From assembly GCA_005801425.1 (NCBI GenBank), contig SYDY01000055.1:1-15693 (forward strand): 15,693 bases of DNA, given 5' to 3'. This document shows, piece by piece, positions 1,118 to 15,265 of the stretch. Source of the DNA: Bdellovibrionales bacterium (GTDB lineage: Bacteria > Myxococcota > XYA12-FULL-58-9 > SYDY01). Both the position numbers and the translations under genes were made by a program. The notes below the pieces were generated by a model. The model was not told where the DNA came from, ran no database searches, and saw only the letters and a list, made by a program, of their open reading frames with translations. Every line of letters begins with the position of its first letter. Position 1 is the stretch's first letter.

Positions 1118-1142
1118 GTCACGTTCTTCGATCTTCCGCCTA
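1118..1142 (+). promoter_or_regulatory. Putative ECF-type promoter, copy 1
   Basis: GTCACG at 1118-1123 is followed after 15 bases by CCTA at 1139-1142 (context TCCGCCTATA). The element lies 23 bases before the ATG at 1166. Transcription would start near 1149, giving a short leader that still contains the purine-rich ribosome site at 1154-1160. The spacing is one base shorter than in the other three copies. It shares GTCACG and TCCGCCTA exactly with the copies at 11626-11651 and 15240-15265. Confidence 0.7.
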
Positions 1143-1165
1143 TAAAACGTGGAAGAGGGAGAACC

Positions 1166-1633
1166 ATGATTTATTCTCAATTATTCGTTATATTCTTGCT
1201 GGTTACAGCATCAGCCTGTGGAAATGATAAAACATCTACAGATCTTTCATCTTCTGACGAAGAAAAAACGATCCCCACAGAGCCCAAGGAAGCTACTGAG
1301 CCTGCTGGCACCATGAAAATGACACAAGTCGGACGCTATCAGGTATGGCTTGAGTTTCCTGATACTTTGGTAAGAGGTCAGGCACAAGATCTGGCACTGA
1401 CCGTGAGAGACGCAAACGGAAAACCCGCGTCCAATCTCATCATCTCCGTAACGTTTATACATAAAGCGATGGGGCATGGGGGCAATAAAATTCCATTCAT
1501 TCAAGAAATAGGTGAAGGGAAGTATACCATAAGCAATGTCGCGGGAAGCATGAGCGGCACGTGGTCTCTTGGCCTCAAGTTTGTTGAAGGCGATATGGAT
1601 GATTTGGTTGCGTATGATATTGAGGTTTCATAA
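1166..1633 (+). CDS. Lipoprotein with YtkA/FixH-like domain
   Basis: This is a 155-residue predicted lipoprotein. A short hydrophobic signal ends in A-S-A-C, with Cys18 as the lipidation site. An acidic, Ser/Thr-rich linker runs to about residue 48. Residues 55-155 form one beta-rich domain of the YtkA/FixH type, with the MGHGG segment at 102-106 and a G-x-Y ... GTW pattern near 118-133. This family is often found beside copper transport or oxidation genes, and its biochemical role is not settled. A good ribosome site (gaggga) precedes the ATG. The stop shares one base with the next ATG (TAATG), so it is probably translationally coupled to the multicopper oxidase. A role as a periplasmic copper-binding accessory of that oxidase is inference. 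Confidence 0.75.
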   Translation: MIYSQLFVIFLLVTASACGNDKTSTDLSSSDEEKTIPTEPKEATEPAGTMKMTQVGRYQVWLEFPDTLVRGQAQDLALTVRDANGKPASNLIISVTFIHKAMGHGGNKIPFIQEIGEGKYTISNVAGSMSGTWSLGLKFVEGDMDDLVAYDIEVS

Positions 1634-2877
1634 TGAAATGTTTTTTTTGTTTTCTATGCATTTTGATCTGCGCATGTACAAACGCAACGGATGATGAAAC
1701 ACATGCATCGCCTACGGTGACAGTTACCAAGGAACAGGCTCAACTTGGATGTTTGTCGATGGGCAGCGGCGATGAGGCCCACGTGATGTGCAATCACGGG
1801 CATAGTCTCAATTTTCGATCTGAAAATCTCTATGCACGTTGGATGTATCTGAATGCGAAGGAAGTGCATCCCATCAGCGAAGCAGATCTCATGATGGGTT
1901 CAGAAAGCCATGCATCATCCATGCTACCAGATCCTATGACACCTCTTTTACGCGCAAGTGTAGGAGAGCGCGTTAAAATACGTGTCATGTCCTACGGCCC
2001 TGAAATGCATGATTTTCATGTTCATGGACACGTGTGGAATGATGGAAATCGCGCCCTGGATACACACCCATTGATGCCCGCCGAAGTGTACGATGGCGCA
2101 GAATTTTACGCCGGTGCTGGTGCGTCCAGTGCGACATCGCGCGCTGGACCAGGCGATTGGATGTACCACTGCCATGTGGAACCCCATATTGCATCGGGAA
2201 TGTGGGGGATTTTTCGCGTTACAGCATCAGACGATAGCATAGGCGAGGATCCTAACGGCCGTTACCCCACAGAAATTCCGCCCCTTCTAGGTGCTGACGG
2301 GCAAACCATCGATGTATGGGTCGTGGCTGCTGAAGTTCCTCTGGCGGTTACACGTGAATTTGATGTAACAACCTCAACACTGCAAACAGTGGAGCGCATG
2401 GCGCGGTTGTACGTGCCTCTTCCTGACGAAACGACTTTTAGGCAAGCAACAGCACATTCAGTCCAGCAAATGCTACGTCCGCAAGCAGAAACATGGATGC
2501 CGTGGGTTTTGTCGCTGAGACTTGGAACACACGTGCGCCTGCATTTGCGTAACATCATGCAAGAAGCCCCGGTATCACTGCATCCGCACGGTGTTCGTTA
2601 CGACATCAACAACGACGGTACAACACCTGATGATGTAGCATGGCCCGGTGGTTCTGAAGTTGTATACGAGTGGACGGCAGACACAGCAGGAACATGGCCA
2701 ATGCATGATCACGCACGTTCTATAGAAAACATCGGTCGTGGTTTGTTTTCAGCTATTGTCGTAAAAACACCTGATGAAGAAACACGTTTGGATCGTGACT
2801 ATCTAATTATTTTTCATGACTTTGATATGAACTGGATGATGGGAATGCCCGATGGCTCGATGATGCAAGGCCATTAA
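1633..2877 (+). CDS. Two-domain multicopper oxidase, type 1 copper in domain 1
   Basis: This is a 414-residue secreted oxidase. The Cys-rich hydrophobic N-terminus resembles a lipoprotein signal, with Cys15 after I-C-A. Domain 1 (about 100-197) carries HDFHVHGH (126-133) and HCHVEPHIASGM (179-190). These supply the type 1 ligands His126, Cys180, His185 and Met190. Domain 2 (about 225-377) has no Cys site but holds HPHG (317-320) and HDH (358-360). The four HxH pairs give all eight histidines of a trinuclear cluster. The type 1 site therefore comes first, the reverse of three-domain oxidases and of the oxidase at 12088-13407. Two-domain enzymes normally form trimers with clusters shared between subunits. 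The Met/His-rich C-terminus (400-414) suggests copper binding. The likely reaction is oxidation of Cu(I) or a phenolic substrate with reduction of O2 to water; the substrate is unproven. Confidence 0.88.
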   Translation: MKCFFCFLCILICACTNATDDETHASPTVTVTKEQAQLGCLSMGSGDEAHVMCNHGHSLNFRSENLYARWMYLNAKEVHPISEADLMMGSESHASSMLPDPMTPLLRASVGERVKIRVMSYGPEMHDFHVHGHVWNDGNRALDTHPLMPAEVYDGAEFYAGAGASSATSRAGPGDWMYHCHVEPHIASGMWGIFRVTASDDSIGEDPNGRYPTEIPPLLGADGQTIDVWVVAAEVPLAVTREFDVTTSTLQTVERMARLYVPLPDETTFRQATAHSVQQMLRPQAETWMPWVLSLRLGTHVRLHLRNIMQEAPVSLHPHGVRYDINNDGTTPDDVAWPGGSEVVYEWTADTAGTWPMHDHARSIENIGRGLFSAIVVKTPDEETRLDRDYLIIFHDFDMNWMMGMPDGSMMQGH

Positions 2878-2912
2878 AAAAACGGTTTTAAAATTGTATA
2901 GAGCGATAGACA

Positions 2913-3449
2913 ATGATGGTGGAAAATTCAGAGCGAACGCTCGATACATTCATGGCGCGATTGGCCCAAGGTGATCGCTCTGCATTTAACGTCATTTTTG
3001 AACGCTTGTGGCCGCCCACATTAAGTTTTTGCGCCAATATATTAAAAAATGACGCCGATGCTGCCGATGCCGCTCAACAAGCGATGGAGAAGATCCTTGT
3101 TCAAGCTTCCAACTACGATCCACAACGTCCAGCGCTGCCATGGGCACTCGCTATTGCGTCATGGGAATGCCGAACAATTCTTCGAAAGTATGCACGTCGA
3201 CGTGAAGCTCCTTACGATCTCGTGCCTGAACCGATGCCATCAAAAACCGATGACATGCATATACAACGTCAACTCATTGAAGCGGCACTCGTTACAATGA
3301 GAACACTATCAGGCATGGACCAAGAAACCTTGGTAGCCACATTTTGGGAAGAAGAAGCGAATGTCAGTGGTGCGACACTGCGCAAGCGTCGCGAGCGTGC
3401 CATCGTTCGACTTCGTAATGCGTTCAGGAGGCTTTATGGAATCGATTGA
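2913..3449 (+). CDS. ECF-like RNA polymerase sigma factor with short region 4
   Basis: This 178-residue protein has the two-part layout of an extracytoplasmic-function sigma factor. Region 2 spans about residues 10-95 and includes the D-A-A-Q-Q-A-M core-binding segment and the W-A-L-A-I-A-S-W-E-C-R helix. Region 4 spans about 117-175 and ends in the basic recognition-like helix GATLRKRRERAIVRLR. Between the L-V-A-T-F-W helix and GATL there are only about seven residues. Canonical sigma region 4 has about eighteen there, so the first helix of the usual helix-turn-helix seems absent. ATGs at 2913 and 2916 are both possible starts. It follows the oxidase by 35 bases and overlaps the next gene by 14, as sigma/anti-sigma pairs often do. 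The promoter at 1118 would make it autoregulated. Confidence 0.85.
   Translation: MMVENSERTLDTFMARLAQGDRSAFNVIFERLWPPTLSFCANILKNDADAADAAQQAMEKILVQASNYDPQRPALPWALAIASWECRTILRKYARRREAPYDLVPEPMPSKTDDMHIQRQLIEAALVTMRTLSGMDQETLVATFWEEEANVSGATLRKRRERAIVRLRNAFRRLYGID
3426..3431 (+). promoter_or_regulatory. Ribosome binding site that sets the start of the membrane partner gene
   Basis: AGGAGG lies inside the end of the sigma factor gene, four bases before the ATG at 3436. It favours 3436 over an upstream in-frame start at 3361 that would overlap the sigma gene by 89 bases. Confidence 0.75.
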
Positions 3450-3987
3450 TTTGATACGTATAAGGCGACGCGTTCGGCTGGCTTATGAGTTCGGTCGTTT
3501 TCAATGGGCTATTTTTGGAATTGCACCCGTTGCACTTCTTGTATGCATCGCGATGTGCTTTGTGCCGAGACCCATCTCAACACTATGGTTTGGCATGGCA
3601 ATCGTTGTGATCGGCGCAACAATGCTGTGGTATGGTCGCGATCCACAGCGCGCTGTACTGCCGGGGGTCATCGCTGGTCTTATCCCGTTGGTGTTGGCTC
3701 TTTGTGCAAACAACATGCACATGTGTGGAGCCGAAGGCTGTACAACATTATGCGTGCCTGCATGTGTTCTTGGCGGCGTTGTCGCGGGTCTTCTTGTCAC
3801 GTACGTGGGCCACCTACGACGTGCTGGCCTTTTATTTTTATTTTCTGCTTCAGTACTTGCTTTACTCACAGGCGCAATGGGGTGCTCTTGTGTTGGATTC
3901 TCCGGCATCATCGGCCTTGGTATTGGATTTTGGACGGGTGTTGTGCCGGTGTTACTTCGCATGCTGTTTAGCAGAAAAACATATTAA
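3436..3987 (+). CDS. Six-helix membrane protein with periplasmic Cys cluster; candidate anti-sigma factor/metal sensor
   Basis: This is a 183-residue protein. A short basic N-terminal tail (1-24) is followed by six hydrophobic segments near 25-43, 48-66, 74-93, 104-124, 130-148 and 153-176. Positive charges at the tail, 68-72, 126-129 and the C-terminus place those parts in the cytoplasm. The Cys-containing loops then face the periplasm. One loop region holds Cys90, Cys97, Cys102, Cys106 and Cys110 with Met94-His95-Met96. The other holds Cys150 and Cys152. A six-helix protein with periplasmic cysteines beside a sigma gene recalls NrsF (DUF1109), a metal-sensing anti-sigma factor, but I see no clear sequence match. 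No classical zinc anti-sigma motif is present. An anti-sigma role rests on gene overlap and topology only. Confidence 0.6.
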   Translation: MESIDLIRIRRRVRLAYEFGRFQWAIFGIAPVALLVCIAMCFVPRPISTLWFGMAIVVIGATMLWYGRDPQRAVLPGVIAGLIPLVLALCANNMHMCGAEGCTTLCVPACVLGGVVAGLLVTYVGHLRRAGLLFLFSASVLALLTGAMGCSCVGFSGIIGLGIGFWTGVVPVLLRMLFSRKTY

Positions 3988-3992
3988 GATCG

Positions 3993-4018
3993 GTCACACT
4001 GCCTGCCTTAAGTGCCTA
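3993..4018 (+). promoter_or_regulatory. Putative ECF-type promoter, copy 2 (weaker match)
   Basis: GTCACA at 3993-3998 is followed after 16 bases by CCTA at 4015-4018 (context TGCCTATC). The -35 half has A for G at its last base, and the TCC before GCCTA is missing. It lies 67 bases before the preferred start of the SbnA-like gene. Spacing and the GCCTA half agree with the minus-strand copies. Confidence 0.55.
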
Positions 4019-4070
4019 TCTGAATGAGTGGTTTGTGTCGTTTTTCTACGATGACATGATCACTTGTCTC

Positions 4071-4078
4071 GGGGGAGG
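4071..4078 (+). promoter_or_regulatory. Ribosome binding site that sets the SbnA-like start
   Basis: GGGGGAGG ends seven bases before the ATG at 4086. The upstream in-frame GTG at 4035 has no such site. A transcript from the promoter at 3993 would begin near 4025 and leave that GTG almost no leader. Confidence 0.75.
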
Positions 4079-4085
4079 CACATTG

Positions 4086-5180
4086 ATGTTTTCGCATCGT
4101 CCAGAACGTGATTTTAAAATCGGTTCCACAGATCGGCTTTTCAGTGATGTGAGTGAAGCACTCGGCATTGTGCCTACCGTGCGATTAAACAAGATCAGTC
4201 GCTTCTGCAAAAAACATGCGTGTTATCTCAAATTGGAGGCATGCAATCCTGGAGGTAGCATCAAAGAAAAAAATGCAGCCTATCTGATCAAAAATGCAGA
4301 GCAACGCGGCCTCCTCAAGCCTGGCAGTACTATTGTCGAGTCATCCTCAGGTAATTTTGGGATCGGACTTGCAATGATCGGTGCTGCACGTGGCTACCGG
4401 GTCATTATCGTTGTTGATGCAAAAACGGCCCCTCCCATGCGTAGGATCTTGAAAGCCTATGGGGCAGAGCTTGTAGACGTACCGCTCACCGAAGCAGATC
4501 TCAATGGATCAATGCAGATCGCAAGAATGAACCGTGCATCCCAAATTGCTACCGCGATTTCAAACTGCTGGTATCCCTGTCAGCACAAAAATCCTTTGAA
4601 CCCCAATGCCCATTATGAATTCACCGCACCTGAAATTATTTCTGATTTTGGAGGAACACCACCCGACGCGCTGGTGGTCGGCGTAAGTACGGCCGGACAA
4701 CTTAGCGGTCTCAGCCGTTACTTCCGTCGCTTTTACCCGAACGTCACCATTGTTGGTGTAGATGTTTCAGGTTCAATTATTTTCAATACCCCTCCACACC
4801 CATACAAAATGACAGGCATAGGCCTTTCGTTTGTTCCGCCTAATTATAATCCCAAGCAACTTGATGTTGCGTACATGATCAACGATCGACTCGCTTTTTC
4901 TTTTTGCCGAGCACTGGCCAAAAGTGAAGGTCTTCTCCTCGGAGCATCTACAGGCGCAATTGTTGCGGCAGGTCTCGCATTTGCGGCCCATGCGCCCGAG
5001 AAAAAAAAGATATTGATGATCAACCCTGATCACGGCAACCGTTATCTTGAAACTGTTTTCAACGACGAATGGATCGAAAATCAAGGCCTTTCACTGTTGA
5101 AAGAAAGTGAACTTGATGACGCGATAAGTGTTCTTGAGCCTATTCCCGCACCTATATTGTACGGTACCAACACGCCATGA
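4086..5180 (+). CDS. SbnA-like PLP-dependent synthase (cysteine synthase fold, beta-replacement)
   Basis: This is a 364-residue fold-type II PLP enzyme. NPGGSIKEK (55-62) gives the Schiff-base lysine Lys60. SSSGNFG (86-92) is the asparagine/substrate loop, VSTAGQLSG (200-208) the phosphate-binding loop and GAST (286-289) the base-contacting segment. The ESSSGN and PPHP...GIG patterns (about 236-246) and the AHYEFTAPEI segment (175-184) fit SbnA-type enzymes better than CysK. SbnA condenses O-phosphoserine with glutamate to N-(1-amino-1-carboxyethyl)glutamate in staphyloferrin B synthesis. The partner dehydrogenase SbnB is absent here, so the product may be the conjugate itself, a related amino-acid adduct, or an intermediate used elsewhere. 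Its stop overlaps the exporter start (ATGA), so the two are co-translated. The fold is certain, the SbnA-like class likely, the substrates inferred. Confidence 0.82.
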   Translation: MFSHRPERDFKIGSTDRLFSDVSEALGIVPTVRLNKISRFCKKHACYLKLEACNPGGSIKEKNAAYLIKNAEQRGLLKPGSTIVESSSGNFGIGLAMIGAARGYRVIIVVDAKTAPPMRRILKAYGAELVDVPLTEADLNGSMQIARMNRASQIATAISNCWYPCQHKNPLNPNAHYEFTAPEIISDFGGTPPDALVVGVSTAGQLSGLSRYFRRFYPNVTIVGVDVSGSIIFNTPPHPYKMTGIGLSFVPPNYNPKQLDVAYMINDRLAFSFCRALAKSEGLLLGASTGAIVAAGLAFAAHAPEKKKILMINPDHGNRYLETVFNDEWIENQGLSLLKESELDDAISVLEPIPAPILYGTNTP

Positions 5181-6523
5181 ACCTCCAACCCCCCACGCCC
5201 GTATCGTTTCGAGATCTGTGGCGACAATTTCTCCCATTGTCGATAAGCGATGTCACAATGGCGGCGGGTGATCCGATGATCACCATGACTCTTGCGCGTA
5301 TGCCAGAACCAACCATCACATTGGCGGCTATGGGCATCGCCAAAAGTATTGCCGTCTTGTTCGAAAGCCCTATTATTATGCTCCTTCATGCTTCAAATGC
5401 ATTAGGACATGCTGTTCGTTCGCGCCGGGCTTTGTGGCATTTTATGCTGCTATGTTGTTTCGTGCTCACAGCTCTTCTCGCCGTTCTTTCAATACCATCG
5501 GTATTCCATGCTCTCGCAATACATATCATGGGCCTTACCGACAATTTGATTTCTCCTGCACATACAGCACTTTTATTCTTAATCTTTTGGCCAGCGATCA
5601 TCGGTTGGCGTCGTTATCACCAAGGACTTTTGATCAGAAACGGAGAAACACGATCTATTGCGCGTGCGGGTCTCGTGCGTTTGGGAATCGTCACGATAAT
5701 CCTTTTTCTCGCCAGCGCAGCTGGTTTTCCTGGGATTTATGTTGGAGGCTTGGCGCTTATCGCGGGGATCATGGCTGAGGCAATCATTGTGACCATCGCT
5801 GCAGCGCGTAGCGATACGATACATGCGCTTCACGCACATAGCGTCGAACATTTTCCCAACGATCTCGCAGGTATTTGGCGCTTCTACTGGCCATTGGCAA
5901 ATGCGATGCTTGTTGTATGGGGTGGAAGGGCAATTCTTATCGCAATCATCGCACGTGCTGTCGATTCTTCAAGTGCACTTGCGGTATGGCCTGCAGCATG
6001 GGGACTAACCCTTCTGATCGCCAATGCCACCCGAATGGTGCAGCAGGTGATCATAAAATATAACGGGATCGCTACCACCCATTTGCTTGTGCTATTTACT
6101 CTTAGTGTTGGTGGCCTTTGTACAATATTTCTTCTTGTTATTGGCACAACCTCAATAGGCTCTTCATGCATCAGCATCTTTGTTGGTCATAATCGGGAAC
6201 TCAGCAACGGTGTTCAATCCGTTGTTCTTTTGTGCATTCCAATCCCTCTTCTCATTGCAATTCAAAATGCTGCACAGGGATTTCTTATCAGTCGTGGAGA
6301 AACAGGAAAAATCAATATTGCAACATGGATTGGTACTGTGATTCTCTTAGGTGTCTCAACCTTTGCTGTGCAGGCCCAGCTTCCTGGGGCAACTTCCGCA
6401 GCGATCGCGATGATGAGCGCAAGTCTTGGTGAAACTGCATTTCTTACTATTTTAGCATACGTGAGTGCAAATGGGTGGTCCCAACGGCACTCCAACTTAT
6501 CTGTTCACGGACCCAGAACGTAA
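5177..6523 (+). CDS. MATE/ANKH-like multi-helix exporter
   Basis: This is a 448-residue integral membrane protein with about twelve hydrophobic helices and short loops. The N-terminal F-R-D-L-W ... F-L-P-L-S-I-S-D segment, the ESPIIMLLHASNAL stretch (about 63-76) and the repeated R-N-G-E-T / R-G-E-T-G turns point to the MOP (MATE-like) exporter superfamily. The closest class I recall is the progressive ankylosis (ANKH) group, whose animal member moves citrate, ATP or pyrophosphate outward. The four-base ATGA overlap with the synthase upstream suggests that it exports that enzyme's product. Its last 27 bases overlap the opposite-strand lipoprotein gene tail to tail. Part of a diverged paralogue survives at 11863-12093. 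The superfamily is likely; the substrate is unknown. Confidence 0.75.
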   Translation: MNLQPPTPVSFRDLWRQFLPLSISDVTMAAGDPMITMTLARMPEPTITLAAMGIAKSIAVLFESPIIMLLHASNALGHAVRSRRALWHFMLLCCFVLTALLAVLSIPSVFHALAIHIMGLTDNLISPAHTALLFLIFWPAIIGWRRYHQGLLIRNGETRSIARAGLVRLGIVTIILFLASAAGFPGIYVGGLALIAGIMAEAIIVTIAAARSDTIHALHAHSVEHFPNDLAGIWRFYWPLANAMLVVWGGRAILIAIIARAVDSSSALAVWPAAWGLTLLIANATRMVQQVIIKYNGIATTHLLVLFTLSVGGLCTIFLLVIGTTSIGSSCISIFVGHNRELSNGVQSVVLLCIPIPLLIAIQNAAQGFLISRGETGKINIATWIGTVILLGVSTFAVQAQLPGATSAAIAMMSASLGETAFLTILAYVSANGWSQRHSNLSVHGPRT

Positions 6524-7237
6524 TCGCTCGGCACGATCAAGGATCTCTCGCGCAACAGTCGAGTCGTCGGAACGAATCATCACAGAAAATCCGTTCCCTG
6601 TAGATGTCACGCTCACTTGGACACCGTTTGGCACAAGCGGACAGTTGGGCATTTCTGCGACCATGTGGCCAAGCGAAGCGTTGCGGGCGAGATGACAATC
6701 GATCACACGCTGCAGCCACTCGGCGGTCATCCCGGGAATAGCTCGAAATGTGACAACAGCCCCAAGCATTCGCCGTGTGGGTACTTTGCCCGTACTCACG
6801 GGGCCCATGAATGGTGCCACACTCTCAATGTCCTCAATGTGGTTAAACGGACTCATGTCTCTGTCGTCTGCGCTGATCCCAATACAGGCGTGTGCCTCAG
6901 CATCGCGAAGCGCGACAGAAGCCGCACGATGATCGGCTGCCTGACGTCGATGCTTCTCGGCGACACGCAGATACTCAGGCGTAGGATTTAAAACAGAGGT
7001 CCAGCACATGCCGGTGTCAACGCCTGCACTTTTTTGACCACCTCTTTGCAAGCATCGCGTCCGATCCTCCACCGAGCTTGGGTCGTATGGACCGCCGTAA
7101 GTTTCTGCTAAACGCTCATGCTTTTGGCCTTCCATCTCGTGTTGTGCCGCGCTCATATCGTGCGGCCGCGCGCCCTGCGTCGTTGTACAAGCAACCACCA
7201 AATTCATGATGGAAATCCACCCAAGTAATCGACCCAT
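6497..7237 (-). CDS. Lipoprotein of unknown function, His/Cys-containing
   Basis: This is a 246-residue predicted lipoprotein with lipobox V-V-A-C and Cys17 as the anchor. Right after it, PHDMSAAQHE (25-34) begins a polar, probably helical stretch of the kind seen in several uncharacterised lipoproteins. A second helical stretch at 90-117 (R-V-A-E-K-H-R-R-Q) is also rich in Ala, His and Arg. Cysteines are at 62, 78, 118, 181 and 199. The C-terminal half (about 155-245) looks like a compact alpha/beta domain that I do not recognise. A good ribosome site (ggag) precedes the ATG, and the ABC ATPase stop is 57 bases upstream, so it is probably the last gene of that operon. The 3' end overlaps the convergent exporter gene by 27 bases. 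The function is unknown. Confidence 0.7.
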   Translation of the reverse strand: MGRLLGWISIMNLVVACTTTQGARPHDMSAAQHEMEGQKHERLAETYGGPYDPSSVEDRTRCLQRGGQKSAGVDTGMCWTSVLNPTPEYLRVAEKHRRQAADHRAASVALRDAEAHACIGISADDRDMSPFNHIEDIESVAPFMGPVSTGKVPTRRMLGAVVTFRAIPGMTAEWLQRVIDCHLARNASLGHMVAEMPNCPLVPNGVQVSVTSTGNGFSVMIRSDDSTVAREILDRAERLRSGSVNR

Positions 7238-7294
7238 GTTAGCTCCACTTCCTTTCGTTGACCGCCCAATTAACCTGAAAAAAAATGGTGATGA

Positions 7295-8008
7295 TCACAA
7301 TAGATCCCTTCGAGGCCGTTCTTCTTTCACAATCCGCCCATCCTCCAACGTAATCACCCTATCTGCTTGATAACCAAATGCCATGTTGTGTGTTGTGATG
7401 ATGATGGTGAGGCCCTTCTCCGCAGCCAAACGACGAAACAACGCGAATATCGCTTCGCCATTGGTCTTATCGAGATTTCCCGTAGGCTCATCTGCCACCA
7501 AAATCTGTGGTTCGACAATCAACGCACGCGCAAGCGCAACACGTTGCATTTGCCCGCCCGACAGTTCACGCGGCAGGTGATTCGCACGATCTGTGAGGGC
7601 CACCATGGCAAGCACCTCACGGGTTTTTTCGGGGTAAGCCTTGCGCCCCAAAAACATCAGCGGCAGCTCTACGTTTTCAGTCACCGTCAATGTGGGCAAC
7701 AAATGAAACTGCTGAAACACAAATCCAAATACGCCACGGCGAACATCAACCAAGTTTTCTTCCGATAGCCCTGCAACCGATTTCCATGCCACCACGAGAG
7801 TTCCTTCCGTGGGTGTATCAAGGCAGGATAGTAAGTTGATCAGGGTTGTTTTTCCCGATCCTGAAGGCCCCAGAATAGAAATCATTTCGCCTCGGCGAAT
7901 AACCAAATCCACACCATCAAGTGCTTTTACGATTTCGCTTCCGCGCTTGTATGAGCGTTTAAGACCATGGGCTTCTATCAGATATTCATTGTCCGTTTCA
8001 GTATTCAT
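7295..8008 (-). CDS. ABC transporter ATP-binding protein, LolD/MacB type
   Basis: This is a 237-residue ATPase with every expected motif: Walker A GPSGSGKT (47-54), Q-loop VFQQFHLLP (97-105), signature LSGGQ (149-153), Walker B ILVADE (169-174) and the switch His207. The FQQFHLLP...T-V-T-E-N-V-E-L-P segment is typical of the LolD/MacB/FtsE group, which drives FtsX-like permeases by transmitting motion rather than by forming a channel. I chose the ATG at 8008, one base after the permease stop. An in-frame start at 8080 would add 24 residues inside the permease gene. It pairs with the permease encoded just upstream. No MacA-like adaptor is present in the window. Confidence 0.93.
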   Translation of the reverse strand: MNTETDNEYLIEAHGLKRSYKRGSEIVKALDGVDLVIRRGEMISILGPSGSGKTTLINLLSCLDTPTEGTLVVAWKSVAGLSEENLVDVRRGVFGFVFQQFHLLPTLTVTENVELPLMFLGRKAYPEKTREVLAMVALTDRANHLPRELSGGQMQRVALARALIVEPQILVADEPTGNLDKTNGEAIFALFRRLAAEKGLTIIITTHNMAFGYQADRVITLEDGRIVKEERPRRDLL

Positions 8009-8009
8009 G

Positions 8010-9293
8010 TTACGCCGCTCCTTCGCGGATGGCCTCAACGGGACGCATGGATGCAGCACGCCAAGCAGGATAAAGCCCACCCAAAAAACCGAGAATCATC
8101 GCGCCGATCACTGCATATCCAATGACAGCCGGTGTGATTTTCACAATGGAGCCCGACACCCCTAAATCAGCGAGTGATTTGATCGCATGTTCTACCAGAC
8201 CTGTTCCAAGCACCGCAGCGGCTGATCCCAACAAAGCACCGAACACACAAATCATCAGTGTCTCAAGCCAAATTAACTCAAAGATATCACTGCGACTGGC
8301 ACCAATGGCTTTCATGATCCCTATCTCGCCCGTTCGCTCATATACACTCATGAGAATGGTGTTGATCACGCCGATTAATGCCACGATCACGGCAATCACT
8401 GCCACGGCAGCAATCATGGTTTGGGCGGTTGCAACCAAGCCTACAAGTGTATTTTTAACTTGCTGCAGTCCCACCACTTGGACTTCTGGTAACTTCAACC
8501 ATCGGGCCTCAAATTCATGCATCTTAAAAGCACTAAATTCCTTGAGCTTAATGCCGAGAATGGTCACTTGATTTTGACGATTGAAGTACGTTCGTGCTGC
8601 ATCGATGGGCATAAACACCGTGCCATCATCCTGTGTTCCCGTACGTTCAAGAACACCCACCACGGTCAATGCATGTTGGACCGGATGGGTTGTTCCATGA
8701 GGTGTGATTGATACGTAGAATGTATCGCCCACTTTGCGCTGTTCGTATTCTGCTGCCTCAAATCCCAATACCACTTCCTTGTTTGCTGTGGTGGAAAACC
8801 AATGGCCACCATCATAACCTGGGCCTTGCTTGAATTTAAGCCACGGCTTCATCACCGTAAAACTTGAAGCATCGATCCCGCTAATGATGGAAAACGTTTT
8901 TTCCGATCCTTCATCCCGAACACCGCTGCCTTCTTTTTCTGCGATCCCAACAAACACCGGCGTGATGCTTGCAATGTCGGGATCATTTTTAACTTTGTCG
9001 AACGTTTCGCTTGGCAAATAGAGCAATCCTGTTCCACCCTTCAGCATCATGGTTGCAGCTTCATAGGGGCATCCCTTTGCCATGATCATCACTTGGAACC
9101 CAAGCATCTCAATGCTTTTATCAATCGCACCACGATAACCGAGCATAAAACCGCCAAGCGATACCGCCACAGCAACAGCCAATGCCACGCCGCTCACAGT
9201 CAGTGCCGTGCGAACCATGCGCCGACGTAGGTTTTTAAATGCCAATCGCATGTACTGGACAACACGCATGGAACTCTTGTTGATTTTCCCCAT
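8010..9293 (-). CDS. MacB/FtsX-like ABC transporter permease
   Basis: This is a 427-residue permease with the MacB layout. A basic N-terminus is followed by helix 1 (about 28-50) and a large periplasmic domain (about 55-285). Three helices then fill the last 140 residues. The coupling segment E-R-T-G-E-I-G-I-M-K-A-I-G-A-S lies between helices 2 and 3. The C-terminus has the R-P-V-E-A-I-R-E pattern of this family. The ATG at 9293 shares one base with the TGA of the upstream gene; a GTG directly before it at 9296 is the alternative. With the ATPase it should form a mechanotransmission machine acting on periplasmic or outer-membrane cargo such as lipoproteins, peptides or a redox partner. The cargo is unknown. 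The small anchored protein and the FMN-binding-like protein upstream are candidate partners. Confidence 0.9.
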   Translation of the reverse strand: MGKINKSSMRVVQYMRLAFKNLRRRMVRTALTVSGVALAVAVAVSLGGFMLGYRGAIDKSIEMLGFQVMIMAKGCPYEAATMMLKGGTGLLYLPSETFDKVKNDPDIASITPVFVGIAEKEGSGVRDEGSEKTFSIISGIDASSFTVMKPWLKFKQGPGYDGGHWFSTTANKEVVLGFEAAEYEQRKVGDTFYVSITPHGTTHPVQHALTVVGVLERTGTQDDGTVFMPIDAARTYFNRQNQVTILGIKLKEFSAFKMHEFEARWLKLPEVQVVGLQQVKNTLVGLVATAQTMIAAVAVIAVIVALIGVINTILMSVYERTGEIGIMKAIGASRSDIFELIWLETLMICVFGALLGSAAAVLGTGLVEHAIKSLADLGVSGSIVKITPAVIGYAVIGAMILGFLGGLYPAWRAASMRPVEAIREGAA

Positions 9294-9667
9294 CACTTAA
9301 ACTCCACGGCACTTGCCCAAAACACATAGTCCGAATTATCCGGCATGATACGACCTTCGACACGCGCAACGTGTCCATCTTTTTTCTTTGGCGCATGCAT
9401 CGCGATATCCGCCAAATCTACTTTGATAGAATTTGTTCCTGCGAAAAAATAGAAATAACACCCCATGGCTTCGCACTGGTCGCGCACAATATCTTCAAGC
9501 AAAATCGTCTTTTGGAGGTAATCGTCAGGATGCGCGATGAGTTCGGCCACTTCCACTTTGGGCGCATCCGTGAATGCGCCATACACATTGGGCATACGAA
9601 ATTGTCGCCAGAGCAATAGTCCTCCACCCAGCAATAGAAGTGCACAAAACACCACAATGGTTCGCAT
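9293..9667 (-). CDS. Membrane-anchored OB-fold (DUF4920-like) protein
   Basis: This is a 124-residue protein with one N-terminal hydrophobic anchor (about 3-20) and a small beta domain (about 38-123). The D-Q-C-x4-G-C segment (Cys65, Cys70), then an I-K-V-D-L strand and the R-V-E-G-R-I strand, resembles DUF4920 and other OB-fold periplasmic domains. In those, a V-C-x-x-x-G-C turn is common. The two cysteines could form a disulfide or bind metal. It lies three bases after the FMN-binding-like gene and one shared base before the permease gene, so it belongs to the same complex or pathway. The family match is by pattern only. Confidence 0.65.
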   Translation of the reverse strand: MRTIVVFCALLLLGGGLLLWRQFRMPNVYGAFTDAPKVEVAELIAHPDDYLQKTILLEDIVRDQCEAMGCYFYFFAGTNSIKVDLADIAMHAPKKKDGHVARVEGRIMPDNSDYVFWASAVEFK

Positions 9668-9670
9668 GAG

Positions 9671-10396
9671 TTACCCCTTGGTTTTATTTTTTCGTTGCAA
9701 AGCCTGCTTGGATTTCTCGAAAAATGGTTCAAAACGTTTTCCATATATAAAAAAATCCAATAAAATTAGATTTTTACGAATACCGCGCAACGATGCGTCG
9801 TAGTCAGGGCGAGTCGTTGCATCCAACGCTGGAGGTTTGATCTTGCCCAGTTTATCGGCGGGTGCATGTGGATCGACAGCTGCGTAATAATCGTGTTTAT
9901 AAAAATCGGCCAACGTCATCTTTTCAAATTGTTCCCGAAACGCTTTTAAGCGCAATTGGGTGGCTGCTGGACTCTCCAATCGTTGAAAGAAAAATTTCCG
10001 GATCTCAGCGGTTGTAGGATCCATCGACAAAAACACCTGGATCACACCGCCTTTTCCAGGAACATTAACGCCGTGAACAATACCCATTTTTTGTGTGCCT
10101 TTGAACACGCTGTAAACCGTATAAGGCGTCTCATAGGTTTCGTAGATGGGGTCGAGGTCGCTTCCTAATCGATCTTTTAAAGAGGCAAACAAAACTGTCC
10201 CACCCGTCATGCGTGTAAATTCTTTAAGTTCCTCTTTGTATGAAGTCATCTCGGGATAAAGATATTTAAGATCTTCAGCAGGATCTGTTAGTGTGCACCC
10301 GATGGCTGCCCATGCCCGTTGTGGCAATAAAAATATTGCCACAATCATCATCAGCGTTTTACCAATACAAGTAATACTGCAACGTTCCAATAACAT
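9671..10396 (-). CDS. Periplasmic FMN-binding-domain-like protein
   Basis: This is a 241-residue exported protein with a signal peptide ending near A-W-A (28-30). The segment GIVHGVNVPGKGGVIQ (105-120), then L-S-M-D-P and Q-R-L-E-S-P-A (138-144), recalls the RnfG/NosR-type FMN-binding domain. There a glycine-rich strand is followed by a D-P-x-G turn and an E-T/E-S-P motif. The S-G-A-T motif for covalent flavin attachment is not seen, so flavin may bind non-covalently or not at all. The start at 10396 has a purine-rich site (aggtggag) but overlaps the porin gene by 38 bases. The alternative ATG at 10351 also leaves a complete signal peptide. The C-terminus (209-241) is hydrophobic, then very basic. 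A redox or regulatory role for the ABC system is inference. Confidence 0.55.
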   Translation of the reverse strand: MLLERCSITCIGKTLMMIVAIFLLPQRAWAAIGCTLTDPAEDLKYLYPEMTSYKEELKEFTRMTGGTVLFASLKDRLGSDLDPIYETYETPYTVYSVFKGTQKMGIVHGVNVPGKGGVIQVFLSMDPTTAEIRKFFFQRLESPAATQLRLKAFREQFEKMTLADFYKHDYYAAVDPHAPADKLGKIKPPALDATTRPDYDASLRGIRKNLILLDFFIYGKRFEPFFEKSKQALQRKNKTKG

Positions 10397-11585
10397 TCAC
10401 TCCACCTTTCTGCCGCATCATTTGTGTTTCTGCGTTGAGTTTGATCCAATGCAAATTGGAATTGGCGACGTCGTTTCTAAAGTACCACGTTATTTCTGTG
10501 AGAACGGAAGCATCAATGGATTTCAAGGCAAGCACGGGATCGATATCGCGACTTTTCGACATATTTTGCCAAAACCAACGAAATTGCGTGCACGCGCCAA
10601 AGCGTCTGGAAGCATGCAAATAGCTGAGTTCATGCAGTTGATTGAACACACCATCAGGCGCATCCCATCCACCACCTAATTCGGATGTCCAGGTAACAAG
10701 ACCCGTCGGCACAGCGTGGCGATAACGTACATCAACACCAAAACGCAAAGTATCTACATGCGCGTTTCCTGATGCATGTTGTGCGACTGCAATACTGCGT
10801 GCAAGGGCATCTGGCGACAGTCGCTGTCCAACCATCACTGCAACACCACCTTCAAGCCCATACTCAGAGGCGTATTGATTGGATAAGCTGATACGCCCTC
10901 CCATCAAGCCTGCCTGGCCTGCGTATTTGGGATCGTAGCCTGATCCCATCATGTAATAGAGATTGTACTGCAGATGCTGATTAAGATTTCCCCACAGACC
11001 TGCATACCAATCACGTTCATAACCAAAATTGCGTTCATTGGATAACTGCAAAACAAGGCCATGGGTATCTGTTTGCAGATTCAAACCAAACGGCAGATAG
11101 AATCGTCCGATGCGAAAATTAAAACGGCCCACAAGGGCATTTTGATAGGATGCTTTCAAAAGCGGATCGAGTACGTTGTAAAAATCAACGTAAGCGTTGT
11201 GATATTCAAAAAAAAAGCCGCGCCGATCCATGCCCTCAAGATCATTCAAAAAACCAACATAACCATCACGGCGAACAAGGCGACCTTGAAAATTGATAGC
11301 TGAAAAGGTTCGTGTCGCGGTGGAGAATTTTTTGAGAACTTCAAAACCGATGGATTGTCTGCTCGCCATGGATTGGTTCGCATCAATGCCAAATTCAGAC
11401 ATCAGTTCTTTTCGGAAACCAAAATTTTCAAGAAAAAATTGTTTGAAGGAAGATTTATTTTTGATTTCATCTTCTTGTGGTTGCGGTTTTACGTCCGCAA
11501 AAGGATCTTCATCCTCTGCGGCAAGCGAGGGCGAATGGGCCATCAACCCAATCCCAATCAATATTGTCATTATTGATAACCGCAT
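10359..11585 (-). CDS. Outer-membrane beta-barrel (porin-like) protein
   Basis: This is a 408-residue protein with a clear signal peptide (1-22, S-L-A cleavage site) and an acidic linker with KPQPQ. The rest (about 70-408) is made of alternating amphipathic strands rich in Tyr, Phe, Trp, Gly and Asn. It ends in Y-Y-L-Y-W, the aromatic last residue recognised by the barrel assembly machinery. The strand F-N-F-R-I-G-R-F-Y-L-P-F-G is typical of putative porins. It is the first gene of the minus-strand operon; gaggga six bases before the ATG is the ribosome site, and a putative ECF promoter sits 41 bases upstream. As porin and ABC permease share an operon, it may be the outer-membrane exit or entry of that system. 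The specific family is not recognised. Confidence 0.8.
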   Translation of the reverse strand: MRLSIMTILIGIGLMAHSPSLAAEDEDPFADVKPQPQEDEIKNKSSFKQFFLENFGFRKELMSEFGIDANQSMASRQSIGFEVLKKFSTATRTFSAINFQGRLVRRDGYVGFLNDLEGMDRRGFFFEYHNAYVDFYNVLDPLLKASYQNALVGRFNFRIGRFYLPFGLNLQTDTHGLVLQLSNERNFGYERDWYAGLWGNLNQHLQYNLYYMMGSGYDPKYAGQAGLMGGRISLSNQYASEYGLEGGVAVMVGQRLSPDALARSIAVAQHASGNAHVDTLRFGVDVRYRHAVPTGLVTWTSELGGGWDAPDGVFNQLHELSYLHASRRFGACTQFRWFWQNMSKSRDIDPVLALKSIDASVLTEITWYFRNDVANSNLHWIKLNAETQMMRQKGGVNVIGTLQYYLYW

Positions 11586-11625
11586 CAGGATCCCTCAAGC
11601 CCTCAGGATGTTGTTTTACTGTAAT

Positions 11626-11651
11626 TAGGCGGATATCAACCCAATCGTGAC
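11626..11651 (-). promoter_or_regulatory. Putative ECF-type promoter, copy 3 (porin/ABC operon)
   Basis: On the minus strand GTCACG (11651-11646) is followed after 16 bases by CCTA (11629-11626), within the string TATCCGCCTA. Transcription would start near 11619, about 34 bases before the porin ATG. Over 28 aligned positions it matches the copy at 15240-15265 at 23. Confidence 0.7.
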
Positions 11652-11862
11652 AGAACATTTGTACTTGATGAGCAAACAGCTGCGTTTCAGCGCTGAATTC
11701 ACGGATTAAAACAACGCAAATATTTTTCTTCTCATTTTTTTGCCCCCACTCCCACTTTTAGTTCAAAAGCTCATCACGGCCGTTTCGGGTTCATATGTAC
11801 CTAAGGACGGCGATGGAGCTATCAACTCCACCACCGCCTATGCGTGTCACCTTCAGAAAAAT
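11652..11862 (+). other. Gene-free stretch with a perfect 12-base palindrome
   Basis: No convincing gene was found here. TTCAGCGCTGAA at 11686-11697 is a perfect palindrome about 35 bases upstream of the porin promoter and could be an operator. From 11710 one plus-strand frame stays open to the TAG at 11887 and runs straight into the transporter remnant, but it has no good start. Its sequence shows only faint resemblance to the intact transporter, so it may be decayed coding sequence or chance. Confidence 0.4.
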
Positions 11863-12093
11863 GCCCCTGCACTTCAAAATACGGCATAGGGGTTATTGAT
11901 AAGCAATGGAAAAACAGGGCAGATCAACATTGCGACATGGATCGGCACTGCCATTCTCGTGAGCATTGCAATATTTAGTGTATACATCAAACTTCCAGGT
12001 GCAACCGCTGCAGCTTTTGCGATGATGAGCGCATGCCTCAATGAAACAGCATTTCTTACAGTTTTTGCACATATCAATGATAAACGCTCATGA
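11863..12093 (+). pseudogene. C-terminal remnant of a second ANKH/MATE-like transporter gene
   Basis: From about 11869 the plus strand encodes the last 70 or so residues of a protein close to the end of the intact exporter at 5177-6523. The clear match runs from L-I-S-N-G (11893) through INIATWIGT, LPGAT, AMMSA and ETAFLT. I count 39 identical of 59 residues. At the position of Gln in the intact copy (Q-N-A-A-Q-G) the remnant has TAG at 11887-11889. No start codon or upstream two-thirds exists. The TGA at 12091-12093 overlaps the end of the opposite-strand oxidase gene by six bases. The divergence shows an old paralogue rather than a recent duplication. Confidence 0.85.
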
Positions 12094-13407
12094 CCGTTTG
12101 GTTGGCGGTACTACACCGTCTGCCTTCATGCGGGCAGGATCTGCGGGACCTGCAATGCTACCTGCTGGATGCTTGTACCAGCCAGTGGGATCTGCTGTAT
12201 CGGGATTATCGCGAACTTTTAGAATCGTGAACATACCGCCCATATCGATGTAACTAAAGGGTCCTTTACCACCACGCATCGGAAGACTATTCGGCGGAAT
12301 GGGCATTTCCATTTCGCCCATGTTGCCCATACCGGTTGTGCCCATGGTCATGTACTCTGGCATGATGCGTTTCATTCGTTGATCAAGCTGATGCGTATCT
12401 GCACCGATCATCGGTGGGATCCCATGTCCCATTTGCGTCATCACATGATGGGTCATGTGACAATGCATGGCCCAGTCGCCTGCCTCTTCCGGTATAAATT
12501 CGATCACGCGCGTGCTTCCTGTGGCGACGAGAACGGTTGTCTCTGGTATTTGCGCTGTTTTTGAAAGGTAGCCGCCGTCGGTCGCGGTTAGCGTGAATGT
12601 AAGTCCATGAATATGGATCGGGTGATGATCCATGGGGCTTAAATTACCAAGTCGAATGCGAACACGTTCACCCCTACCAACAACAAGAGGTGCCGTTCCG
12701 GGAAACGACCTGCTGTTAAAAGTAAGAACGTTGAAATCTTTCATCTCGTTTGGATCAGGACGACGTGCACCAACATTGAGACGCCACTCGTGTGTCATCA
12801 ATGCAAAATCGCGATCAACCCGGGGCCCACGTGGGCGTTTAGGATGCACGATAAACATGCCTTCCATACCAAGAGCGATTTGGGTCATCTCATCGAAATG
12901 TGAATGGTACATGAAAGTACCCGGATATCGAACCGTAAATTCATACATGAATGTTTCGCCAATTGGGATCGGTCGCTGGGTTAATCCCGAAACACCGTCC
13001 ATCCCATTCGGCAGAATGATCCCATGCCAGTGAACTGTCGTGGGCTCGGGCAGACGATTGGTTACGTAGATCCTAAGATGGTCACCCTCGACAGCCTCGA
13101 TGGTTGGCCCTGGTGTGCTTCCATTGTAACCCCAGCATTCGGCACGCAACCCGGGCGCAAATTCATGATCGACCGGCTCTGCGATGAGGTGGCCCACTTT
13201 GACACCATGAACGATATTCCACGGTAGCGTCGAACCATTAGGCGTGACAACGGCGATTTGTCCTCCTGGAGCGACGATGCTTCTGCGTGATGGCAATCGA
13301 TGAGGCATGGGTGCAGGTGCCTCTCTGGCTTCGACGGGCGTTACGCGCGCGATCAATGCTGCACCGGCAACCATGCTGCTGTACTGAATGAATTCCCGTC
13401 GATCCAT
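12088..13407 (-). CDS. Tat-exported two-domain multicopper (copper) oxidase, type 1 copper in domain 2
   Basis: This is a 439-residue oxidase with a twin-arginine signal (DRREFIQ at 2-8, cleavage near V-E-A, 25-27), so it is exported folded. Domain 1 (about 75-190) has HWHG (126-129) and HSH (168-170), with Ser in place of the type 1 Cys. Domain 2 (about 200-330) has HPIHIHG (262-268) and HCHMTHHVMTQM (315-326). These give type 1 ligands His262, Cys316, His321 and Met326. Only about 95 residues separate the HSH and HPIHIH motifs, so the middle domain of three-domain oxidases is absent. A Met-rich tail (345-391) and the FTILKVRD segment match the copper oxidases that often accompany TolC-family and Cus genes. 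The likely role is periplasmic oxidation of Cu(I) to less toxic Cu(II). It follows the TolC-family stop by three bases and has its own gagga site. Confidence 0.92.
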   Translation of the reverse strand: MDRREFIQYSSMVAGAALIARVTPVEAREAPAPMPHRLPSRRSIVAPGGQIAVVTPNGSTLPWNIVHGVKVGHLIAEPVDHEFAPGLRAECWGYNGSTPGPTIEAVEGDHLRIYVTNRLPEPTTVHWHGIILPNGMDGVSGLTQRPIPIGETFMYEFTVRYPGTFMYHSHFDEMTQIALGMEGMFIVHPKRPRGPRVDRDFALMTHEWRLNVGARRPDPNEMKDFNVLTFNSRSFPGTAPLVVGRGERVRIRLGNLSPMDHHPIHIHGLTFTLTATDGGYLSKTAQIPETTVLVATGSTRVIEFIPEEAGDWAMHCHMTHHVMTQMGHGIPPMIGADTHQLDQRMKRIMPEYMTMGTTGMGNMGEMEMPIPPNSLPMRGGKGPFSYIDMGGMFTILKVRDNPDTADPTGWYKHPAGSIAGPADPARMKADGVVPPTKRS

Positions 13408-13410
13408 TTT

Positions 13411-14835
13411 TTAATGTCCTCTTGATGACTCATTTTTCGTGTCTTGTGTGATATTTCTTGATGCTCGCGTATGCGGCGAGGACACATGTCCACCTGCAAG
13501 CAGTGCATCAAGTTCCGCTACAGCGCTCCAGTACTCTCGCAGCGTTTCGACGTAAGCAAGCTGTACATCCAGCTGCTCTCGACGTGCTTGCAGCAAATGA
13601 AAAATACCGATCTGCATGGCATTGTATTGCAAAAGCGTTTGCTCAGTGACACGACGTTGAGCAGGCACAATGACCTCTTGATACTGATGGGCACGTGCAT
13701 GCGATGATGCCACGCGACTGCGTGCTTCTCGTACAGCCGATCGCAGATCGACAGCCATGCCGTAGTAACTTTCCATCAGCGCATCGAATTCAGCTTCAAC
13801 CGCCACAAGAGTTCCTTGTTTGCGATCGAATAATGGGATCCCCACCGTCAGGCCGCCACCAAAGCGCCAATTTCGATTTAAGTTCGATGCATTTGTGTCC
13901 TCTTCTGGATTTCCCTGAAGGCTGTGAAAATCAATTGTAATATCAGGAAGCCATCCAGCAACGCGTGTTACGCCTGCTCGCCGAGCAAGTCCTTCGAGAC
14001 GATGTTTTGCCTCCATCAAATCAAGACTTGCTTCAAGCGCGCGTGTTTCCGTATTTTCCGGGATTGTTGGCTGTTCAGAAACCGCTGAAAGTTCGTTTTT
14101 GATGCGCCAATTTGTGTCTTCGCCGTGGGTACCGAGAAGACGTTGGACCTGTTCTCGCTCGGTAATGATATCCAGCTCTATTTGAGCAACGGTGATCCGT
14201 GCTTTTTCGTACGCCGCTTCCTCGCTCACAAGATCGAGAACAGCGATATTTCCTGCGCCAAACATTGCCCTCGCCGCATCCCGACTCGCTGCAAAACCAT
14301 CAAGAACCTGTTGCGCGATGGCCAGACGTTGTTCGGCAGATTGCAATCGATAGAAAGCAATGCGAACACGATATCCAAGATCAACGACCGATCCTGCAGC
14401 ACGATAACGGGCAGCTTCGAGATCAGATCTGGCCGCTCGTGCGCGGATCGGCGCCATGATTGCGCTTGTAATATTGTACTCCACACGCAGTTCTAAAAGT
14501 GTGTTACGTTCGGGAAGTATCTCACCTTCCACGGTCGGATTAGGTAGAAGTCCTTCCTGGATCATATGTCCTCGTTCAATTCCCATACCGCGCAAAACCG
14601 CACGTAGTTCTCTGTTGTTGGCCAGCGCGACTCGAACTGCGGTCTCTGCATCAAGCGGTTGTTTGAGCAGCTGTCTTGCATCTTCATCGGCTACTGGATC
14701 GATATTTACTTCGGCGATGCGAGGGAGACTTTCAATCCGAGTGAGCTCATGAACCTGTCGAACATCGGCCATGATAGAAGATGCGATGCAACCTGTTGTA
14801 CTCAGAGAACTCAAGAATAGAATGACCCACTTCAT
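13411..14835 (-). CDS. TolC-family outer-membrane efflux lipoprotein (CusC-like)
   Basis: This 474-residue protein has a short signal and Cys16 after T-T-G, a plausible lipid anchor as in CusC/OprM-type proteins. The body shows the internal two-fold repeat of the family. Each half has long alpha-helical hairpins (about 130-235 and 355-450, rich in Ala, Arg, Glu and Leu) and a short strand region (about 95-125 and 295-345, including G-G-L-T-V-G-I-P-L-F-D-R). The ATG at 14835 overlaps the upstream stop as ATGA; an in-frame ATG at 14871 would add 12 residues without a proper signal. No RND pump or periplasmic adaptor lies in the window, so its inner-membrane partner must be outside. TolC-family plus copper-oxidase gene pairs are common in copper resistance loci. 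Confidence 0.88.
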   Translation of the reverse strand: MKWVILFLSSLSTTGCIASSIMADVRQVHELTRIESLPRIAEVNIDPVADEDARQLLKQPLDAETAVRVALANNRELRAVLRGMGIERGHMIQEGLLPNPTVEGEILPERNTLLELRVEYNITSAIMAPIRARAARSDLEAARYRAAGSVVDLGYRVRIAFYRLQSAEQRLAIAQQVLDGFAASRDAARAMFGAGNIAVLDLVSEEAAYEKARITVAQIELDIITEREQVQRLLGTHGEDTNWRIKNELSAVSEQPTIPENTETRALEASLDLMEAKHRLEGLARRAGVTRVAGWLPDITIDFHSLQGNPEEDTNASNLNRNWRFGGGLTVGIPLFDRKQGTLVAVEAEFDALMESYYGMAVDLRSAVREARSRVASSHARAHQYQEVIVPAQRRVTEQTLLQYNAMQIGIFHLLQARREQLDVQLAYVETLREYWSAVAELDALLAGGHVSSPHTRASRNITQDTKNESSRGH

Positions 14836-15185
14836 GGTTGTCGCACCAATATCATTCCACACTTTGGGCATTCGCCTTCATGATCGGATACAACTTCTTT
14901 GTGCATGGGGCAGACGTATTGGGATTTGGCTGACCCATGGTTGGAATGATGATCCACATCATTGACTTGGGGATCGGCTGGGCGAAGCCCGGGCCACTGA
15001 TCAGTTGATTCTCCCGGAAGTGGCGGGTCTTCGAGCAGCGTTCGGATGACAGAAGACGGCTTAGCTTCTGCCCCGGAAATTGAGGCAGCCGATGTTGGAG
15101 GAAAACTGACAGGCACTGTTCGAGACGCACAACCCATTCCGAGACTGCCCACCCATAAAAACAAGAAATTCCTTATGAAATGCAT
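14832..15185 (-). CDS. Lipoprotein with C-terminal heavy-metal-binding domain
   Basis: This is a 117-residue predicted lipoprotein (L-G-M-G-C, Cys19). A proline/serine-rich linker leads to a His cluster (HHSNH, 79-83) and a short C-terminal heavy-metal-binding domain (90-114) with YVCPMH and CPKCGM. This domain is usually found at the N-terminus of copper ATPases or in CusB-type adaptors, where Cys and Met/His residues bind copper. Here it stands alone on a lipid anchor. It is the first gene of the minus-strand operon, with a strong aggagg site five bases before the ATG and a putative ECF promoter 55 bases upstream. It overlaps the TolC-family gene by four bases. A likely role is to capture or relay periplasmic copper to the oxidase or efflux duct. 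Confidence 0.88.
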   Translation of the reverse strand: MHFIRNFLFLWVGSLGMGCASRTVPVSFPPTSAASISGAEAKPSSVIRTLLEDPPLPGESTDQWPGLRPADPQVNDVDHHSNHGSAKSQYVCPMHKEVVSDHEGECPKCGMILVRQP

Positions 15186-15239
15186 TTTTTCCTCCTGTTC
15201 CCGCTCAACACCAGAGAACGCGAGAACTTCACAGCAACA

Positions 15240-15265
15240 TAGGCGGATAGCAACAAAAGCGTGAC
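15240..15265 (-). promoter_or_regulatory. Putative ECF-type promoter, copy 4 (HMBD-TolC-oxidase operon)
   Basis: On the minus strand GTCACG (15265-15260) is followed after 16 bases by CCTA (15243-15240), again within TATCCGCCTA. Transcription would start near 15233, about 48 bases before the lipoprotein ATG. The element lies in the 129-base gap between this operon and the MFS gene upstream. Confidence 0.7.

Follow-up and report, generated by a model that had tools for sequence, protein, structure and literature searches.

A probable copper-responsive ECF sigma factor system of Myxococcota with a two-block promoter and a six-helix membrane partner

Introduction

The sigmaF factor of Caulobacter is paired with NrsF (PF06532, formerly DUF1109), a six-helix protein with conserved periplasmic cysteines that takes part in a heavy-metal response (PMC3511200). 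In Myxococcus xanthus, the CarQ-CarR pair joins an ECF sigma factor to a six-helix membrane regulator (PMC8156234). The same species has CorE, which serves a small copper regulon that includes a multicopper oxidase and P-type ATPases, with a site ahead of a gene for outer-membrane efflux (PMC3107203). For ECF41 sigma factors, the −35 element is TGTCACA and the spacer is 16 ± 1 bp (PMC3426412).

Here, we analyzed a stretch of 15,693 nucleotides from a Bdellovibrionales bacterium of the Myxococcota (contig SYDY01000055.1), which we call the window. It carries an ECF sigma gene, the gene of a six-helix membrane protein, and four copies of a two-block element. Taken together, our data most likely describe a sigma/anti-sigma pair that senses copper and controls a small, local regulon in Myxococcota. 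The papers that we searched contain no description of this sigma/partner/promoter system.

Results

A sequence-only reading of the window had proposed that a two-part promoter element, GTCACR-N14/15-GCCTA, stands before each transcription unit that begins there and would be expected about 0.06 times by chance. Exact matching returned the same four copies, at the same positions and on the same strands, and none elsewhere in the window. Site 1 (1118..1142, + strand, GTCACG-N14-GCCTA) precedes unit 1, which starts at the ATG at 1166. Site 2 (3993..4018, +), the weakest, precedes a gene for an SbnA-like enzyme (ATG 4086), and the sequence GGGGGAGG lies immediately upstream of that ATG. Sites 3 (11626..11651, −) and 4 (15240..15265, −), both GTCACG-N15-GCCTA, precede a porin-like/ABC unit (start 11585) and an HMBD-OEP-MCO2 unit (start 15185), respectively. 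The start codons lie 23, 67, 40, and 54 nt beyond the GCCTA block of sites 1 to 4, respectively, and each copy is oriented toward its gene, as had been described. Three of the four sites fit GTCAC(G/A)-spacer-TCCGCCTA. Dinucleotide shuffles of the window (n = 200) gave a mean of 0.01 matches and none of the 200 reached four. Judged from the ORF map, exactly four transcription units would start in the window.

Site 1 follows directly on the C-terminal part of a P-type ATPase gene. Unit 1 opens with a gene for a YtkA-like lipoprotein (1166..1633, +; PF13115, E = 3.4e-7), followed by that of a multicopper oxidase, MCO1, assigned by domain search (1633..2877, +). The domain order of MCO1, Cu-oxidase_2 and then Cu-oxidase_3, is the reverse of that in MCO2, the second multicopper oxidase of the window. 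The third gene (2913..3449, +) encodes a 178-aa protein that the sequence-only reading had called ECF-like; it proved to be a genuine sigma2-sigma4 ECF protein (PF04542 at residues 29 to 95, 1.4e-7). It reached 38.1 bits with the sigma70-ECF model, under the cut-off of 42.9, and the profile of its family matched the solved RpoE, SigK, and SigW across both regions. As is usual for ECF factors (about 180 to 200 aa), it holds sigma2 and sigma4 only, and by sequence it has the kind of autoregulated two-block promoter, with a spacing of about 16 bp, that these factors recognize. The window sigma has no C-terminal Cys-rich extension, and there were no cysteines in the last 40 residues of 31 sigmas. 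Among the 157 groups of the 2021 ECF classification, the family may already have a number.

Between MCO1 and the sigma gene, we found no terminator-like hairpin; site 1 therefore plausibly drives the sigma gene as well. A scan for alternative sigma-70 promoters gave fewer promoter-like sites than shuffles did. These scans are consistent with unit 1 being a single operon, of which site 1 would be the autoregulatory site. The last gene of the unit overlaps the sigma gene (3436..3987, +) and encodes the 183-aa, six-helix membrane partner described below, a putative anti-sigma factor and metal sensor.

Behind site 2 lie a PLP-dependent synthase of the SbnA/cysteine-synthase type (4086..5180, +; PF00291; TIGR03945 at 299.8 bits, below the cut-off of 349.95) and a polytopic membrane protein (5177..6523, +), which by inspection resembles MATE exporters and has no Pfam match. 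Under a shared site, the two could possibly make and then secrete a small amino-acid product that binds metal. A further MATE-like gene has left a C-terminal remnant at 11869-12138 (+); over 92 aa, this remnant is 53% identical to the product of 5177-6523, which suggests duplication and decay inside the cluster. Unit 3 (6497..11585, −) encodes a 408-aa porin-like protein, exported proteins of 241 and 124 aa, a MacB/FtsX permease, an ABC ATPase, and a 246-aa lipoprotein. The unit behind site 4 encodes an HMBD heavy-metal-binding lipoprotein (14832..15185, −; PF19335, 1.6e-13), an outer-membrane efflux protein of the CusC/TolC type (13411..14871, −; PF02321, 3.9e-30), and MCO2 (12088..13407, −; PF07732/PF07731).

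We extended the pattern search to the whole host genome (3.38 Mb) and obtained 8 GTCACR-N14/15-GCCTA matches, compared to 4 for a reversed-pattern control. Four are those of the window, two lie at a second cluster (C55, locus L034), and two are inside unrelated coding sequences, namely, a leucyl-tRNA-synthetase-like ORF and, in antisense orientation, a CinA-like ORF. Because the last two sit inside coding sequences, every intergenic copy (six in all) belongs to one of the two sigma clusters. Those at L034 adjoin a paralogous sigma gene and stand before a YtkA-like and multicopper oxidase pair paralogous to that of unit 1. Identity to the window is 78% for the MCO1 paralogue, 49% for YtkA, and about 33 to 40% for the sigma paralogue; this mismatch suggests gene conversion or different ages. 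A GCCCA variant of the element gave 10 matches in the host genome, 7 of them within ORFs and none ahead of a plausible copper gene; two of the three outside ORFs have identical sequence.

Scanning an alignment of the sigma factor against 84,980 genomes yielded 33 relatives of the window sigma, labeled as Myxococcota, deltaproteobacteria, or unspecified proteobacteria. We then ran an unbiased dyad search, without use of the earlier motif, over all pairs of 5-mers with gaps of 8 to 21 in the 330 bp that precede the sigma gene at 31 nonredundant loci. The top dyad was GTCAC-N16-GCCTA, present at 20 of the 31 loci; pooling N15 and N16 raised this to 23/31, and allowing GCCCA added 5 more (28/31). 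A downstream control had a best dyad of 9 loci. At three of the 31 loci (L045, L046, and L053), a 9/10 match was not found in the 330 bp upstream of sigma. Across 435 kb of loci, the GTCAC and GCCTA blocks occurred 10 times at N15 and 34 times at N16 (44 in total) and no more than once at any other spacing, while letter-permuted controls over the same 435 kb had a mean of 2.07, with GC-rich words reaching up to 25. A leave-one-out matrix at >11.5 bits gave 49 matches in 406 kb versus 3 in shuffles; of the 49, 27 stood immediately ahead of a sigma gene. Fifteen loci of less related ECF sigmas that came from the sigma search had no copy of the motif. In GC-rich genomes, the consensus reads GTCACG(C)(T)-spacer-CGCGCC(T/C)A. 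Across loci, the sites keep a fixed direction and a position between 5 and about 300 nt ahead of starts, and their spacer is poorly conserved.

A matrix built solely from foreign loci ranked the window sites first to fourth (site 1, 25.3 bits; site 3, 21.8; site 4, 19.2; site 2, 11.6), and the best nonsite in the window scored 7.9 bits. Since the unbiased search finds the dyad upstream of foreign sigma genes and the foreign matrix ranks the window sites 1 to 4, GTCAC/GCCTA is very probably the cognate, autoregulated promoter of the window sigma; recognition of the sites by the sigma factor is what their strict co-occurrence across loci points to. The signature also stands before the matching sigma gene in relatives and thus would mark a self-switching control system, probably for copper. 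The ECF −35/−10 assignment made in the sequence-only reading is therefore backed by conservation near sigma genes in relatives, and neither poor conservation nor a background-like frequency, two of the outcomes it had named as fatal, was found. Its view of the element as part of one autoregulated regulon is likewise supported. Oxidases and efflux genes recur behind sites elsewhere, and the SbnA/MATE and ABC/porin units are attached in this genome only, as far as tested; SbnA, MATE, the ABC permease, and the porin-like protein had no homologues in other sigma loci, and we rejected them as conserved members. That reading had not included the partner as a putative anti-sigma factor, nor the paralogous cluster, the small Cys-rich peptides, or the spread of the system across the family.

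Several kinds of genes lie behind sites in relatives. Multicopper oxidases do so in L044, where the homologue of MCO2 has a site of its own, and in L066. A CusC-type outer-membrane protein followed by CusB with HMBD was found in L049 and, by inspection, in L054; cupredoxin was found in L057 and, by inspection, in L060. Divergent sites at L043:3159-3246 separate the sigma operon from a gene for a 55-aa Cys-rich peptide, and a third site (L043:5652-5676) precedes MbnP and its di-haem partner MbnH; these positions link the sigma family to MbnP/MbnH. Further sites precede an RND efflux pair (L035) and an FAD/GMC oxidoreductase (L050). Outside sigma clusters, genome-wide site counts were near the control level, and the regulon therefore appears small and largely local.

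At 13 of the 33 loci (L056, L062-L065, L067-L069, L071-L073, L075, and L076), and also at L034 and L038, an ORF of 37 to 55 aa lies between the site and the sigma gene; its product has a signal peptide and ends in a Cys-rich tail. One example is MRRWLKVTLIAAVLGIPTAAYAGTQLASGCPCADCPCPDCPCG, and the copy in L034 (about 9107-9239, −) lies upstream of the sigma paralogue. Going by their sequences, these are probably unannotated periplasmic metal-binding peptides. Bufferins are marked by MNIO genes. We rejected a link to bufferins, as the nine genomes checked have MNIO genes that are not adjacent to the sigma clusters.

A profile search placed the partner directly downstream of, or overlapping, the sigma gene in 33 of 33 loci. 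Of 195 genomes sampled from the phylum, 51 had a match to its profile. The window protein has cysteines at positions 97, 102, 106, 110, 150, and 152, and the first five of these are cysteine in 27 to 30 of 30 sequences. The AF2 model has six helices (mean pLDDT, 92.1; pTM, 0.85). K/R fractions are 0.00 to 0.01 in the Cys loops and 0.27 in the N terminus and predicted cytoplasmic loops; the exception is the loop that joins helices 1 and 2, which is predicted to be periplasmic and at 0.23 is as basic as the cytoplasmic loops. From the near lack of K/R around them, the cysteines are predicted to be in the periplasm.

No Pfam family and no known anti-sigma family matched the partner. We examined it for homology to NrsF and rejected this: there was no PF06532 match in 30 members (E ≤ 1) or in the window's genome, and the hhalign probability against NrsF-like proteins was 0.6%. 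Fold searches against the PDB gave no Foldseek match at E ≤ 0.001 and no VIA match at Z ≥ 8. A likeness to RND-pump helices at Z of about 6 is not meaningful for a helical bundle and was set aside. At L052:9093-10931, a single frame joins a second partner copy, which has a site in front of it, to a CusC/TolC-like outer-membrane protein and includes an internal stretch that resembles a signal peptide; this frame is either a natural fusion or an assembly error.

Discussion

We propose the following model. RNA polymerase with the ECF sigma factor (2913-3449) would read GTCACG as the −35 and GCCTA as the −10 element. Site 1 would drive the operon that holds the sigma gene, making the system autoregulated. 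In the absence of metal, the partner (3436-3987) would sit at the inner membrane and hold the sigma factor through its basic N-terminal helix. Binding of copper, probably Cu(I), by the periplasm-facing C97, C102, C106, C110, and C150 would release the sigma factor, which could then switch on the oxidases, the HMBD/CusC efflux genes, YtkA, the ABC/porin unit, the SbnA-like/MATE unit, and its own operon. That the partner acts as an anti-sigma factor, that copper is its ligand, and that binding releases the sigma factor are suggested by linkage, topology, Cys conservation, and the targets. We have good confidence in this reading as a whole, from the sigma-read −35/−10 and autoregulation through the six-helix anti-sigma factor and its release by copper to the small, local copper regulon. 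Points against it are that some targets (the FAD/GMC oxidoreductase, the SbnA-like enzyme, and the MATE-like protein) are not obviously copper genes, that site 2 is weak, that a 9/10 match is missing at three of the 31 loci, that the loop joining helices 1 and 2 is basic, and that the partner resembles no known anti-sigma family.

The part played by the partner could be a different one. The motif may be a sigma promoter while the partner is a co-regulated transporter or a positive sensor and the sigma factor is controlled otherwise. The partner has no homology to known anti-sigma factors, and extra copies stand behind sites without a second adjacent sigma in L045 and L052, as a target would. 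Set against this are the invariable linkage (33/33) with overlapping or adjoining reading frames, the predicted cytoplasmic basic N-terminal helix, and a topology and periplasmic-Cys logic like those of NrsF/CarR; extra partner copies can also act as feedback. We consider this alternative unlikely. We would give a similarly small chance to a signal other than copper, such as another soft metal (Ag, Au, Hg, or Cd) or thiol/oxidative stress. Cys clusters bind many soft metals, NrsF responds to Cr and Cd (PMC3511200), and a CorE target is also induced by Cd and Zn (PMC3107203). However, the targets are distinctly those of copper, namely, multicopper oxidases, cupredoxin, MbnP/MbnH, and CusCB with HMBD, with P-type ATPases nearby.

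That the element is instead the operator of a classical copper regulator of the CueR/CsoR/CopR type seems very improbable to us. The targets are copper genes, and one regulator of this type often controls several copper units. Yet the site is neither a dyad, as had already been said of it, nor a direct repeat; it consists of two blocks at N15/16 with a fixed direction and position, and it tracks the sigma gene across Myxococcota and is absent from less related ECF loci. Chance co-occurrence of short upstream words, with which the near-control counts outside clusters would agree, can be practically dismissed given the shuffles and is already refuted by the unbiased recovery at 23 of 31 foreign loci and by the leave-one-out matrix.

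The copper-sensing sigma/anti-sigma reading has a broader form, in which the partners are a new family of copper-sensing, six-helix, periplasmic-Cys anti-sigma factors unrelated to NrsF/CarR, with an ECF group of its own and the promoter GTCAC-N15/16-GCC(T/C)A across Myxococcota, and in which the operon often encodes a hidden, secreted 37- to 55-aa Cys-rich copper-buffer peptide (e.g., ...GCPCADCPCPDCPCG). For this wider claim, we see the chances as evenly balanced. The analysis provides a testable promoter code and a regulon map for a sigma/anti-sigma family whose partner has no Pfam family, and it exposes unannotated Cys-rich secreted peptides. The partner would be a second, apparently unrelated way to link an ECF sigma factor to metal sensed in the periplasm, and the narrow promoter/sigma pair could serve as an orthogonal metal-responsive switch.

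Compared to the described systems, the locus shares features with each and is identical to none. With ECF41, it shares nearly the same −35 block and a similar spacer. However, the ECF41 −10 element is CGTC, as opposed to GCC(T/C)A here, and ECF41 factors have a large C-terminal extension and COE-enzyme targets, whereas the window sigma is 178 aa long without the extension. We thus do not place it in ECF41. CorE and CorE2 (ECF44, now ECF238) are, as here, copper-linked myxobacterial ECF sigma factors with a small, largely local regulon. CorE senses copper via its own C-terminal Cys-rich domain, has no linked anti-sigma factor, and has a −35 element that contains AAC. The window sigma is without such a domain and its family has the membrane partner in every locus, which excludes it from the CorE-like factors. 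The locus also resembles sigmaF-NrsF and CarQ-CarR, in which an ECF sigma factor is likewise co-encoded with a six-helix membrane regulator and has a small regulon and a two-block promoter. The sigmaF promoter is GTAACC-N16-CGAA compared to GTCAC-N15/16-GCCTA here, and NrsF has two conserved cysteines whereas the partner has five or six in another arrangement. By prediction, the partner shares with NrsF its six transmembrane helices with conserved cysteines on the periplasmic side. By analogy, it most likely works like NrsF, although profile comparison does not support membership in that family.
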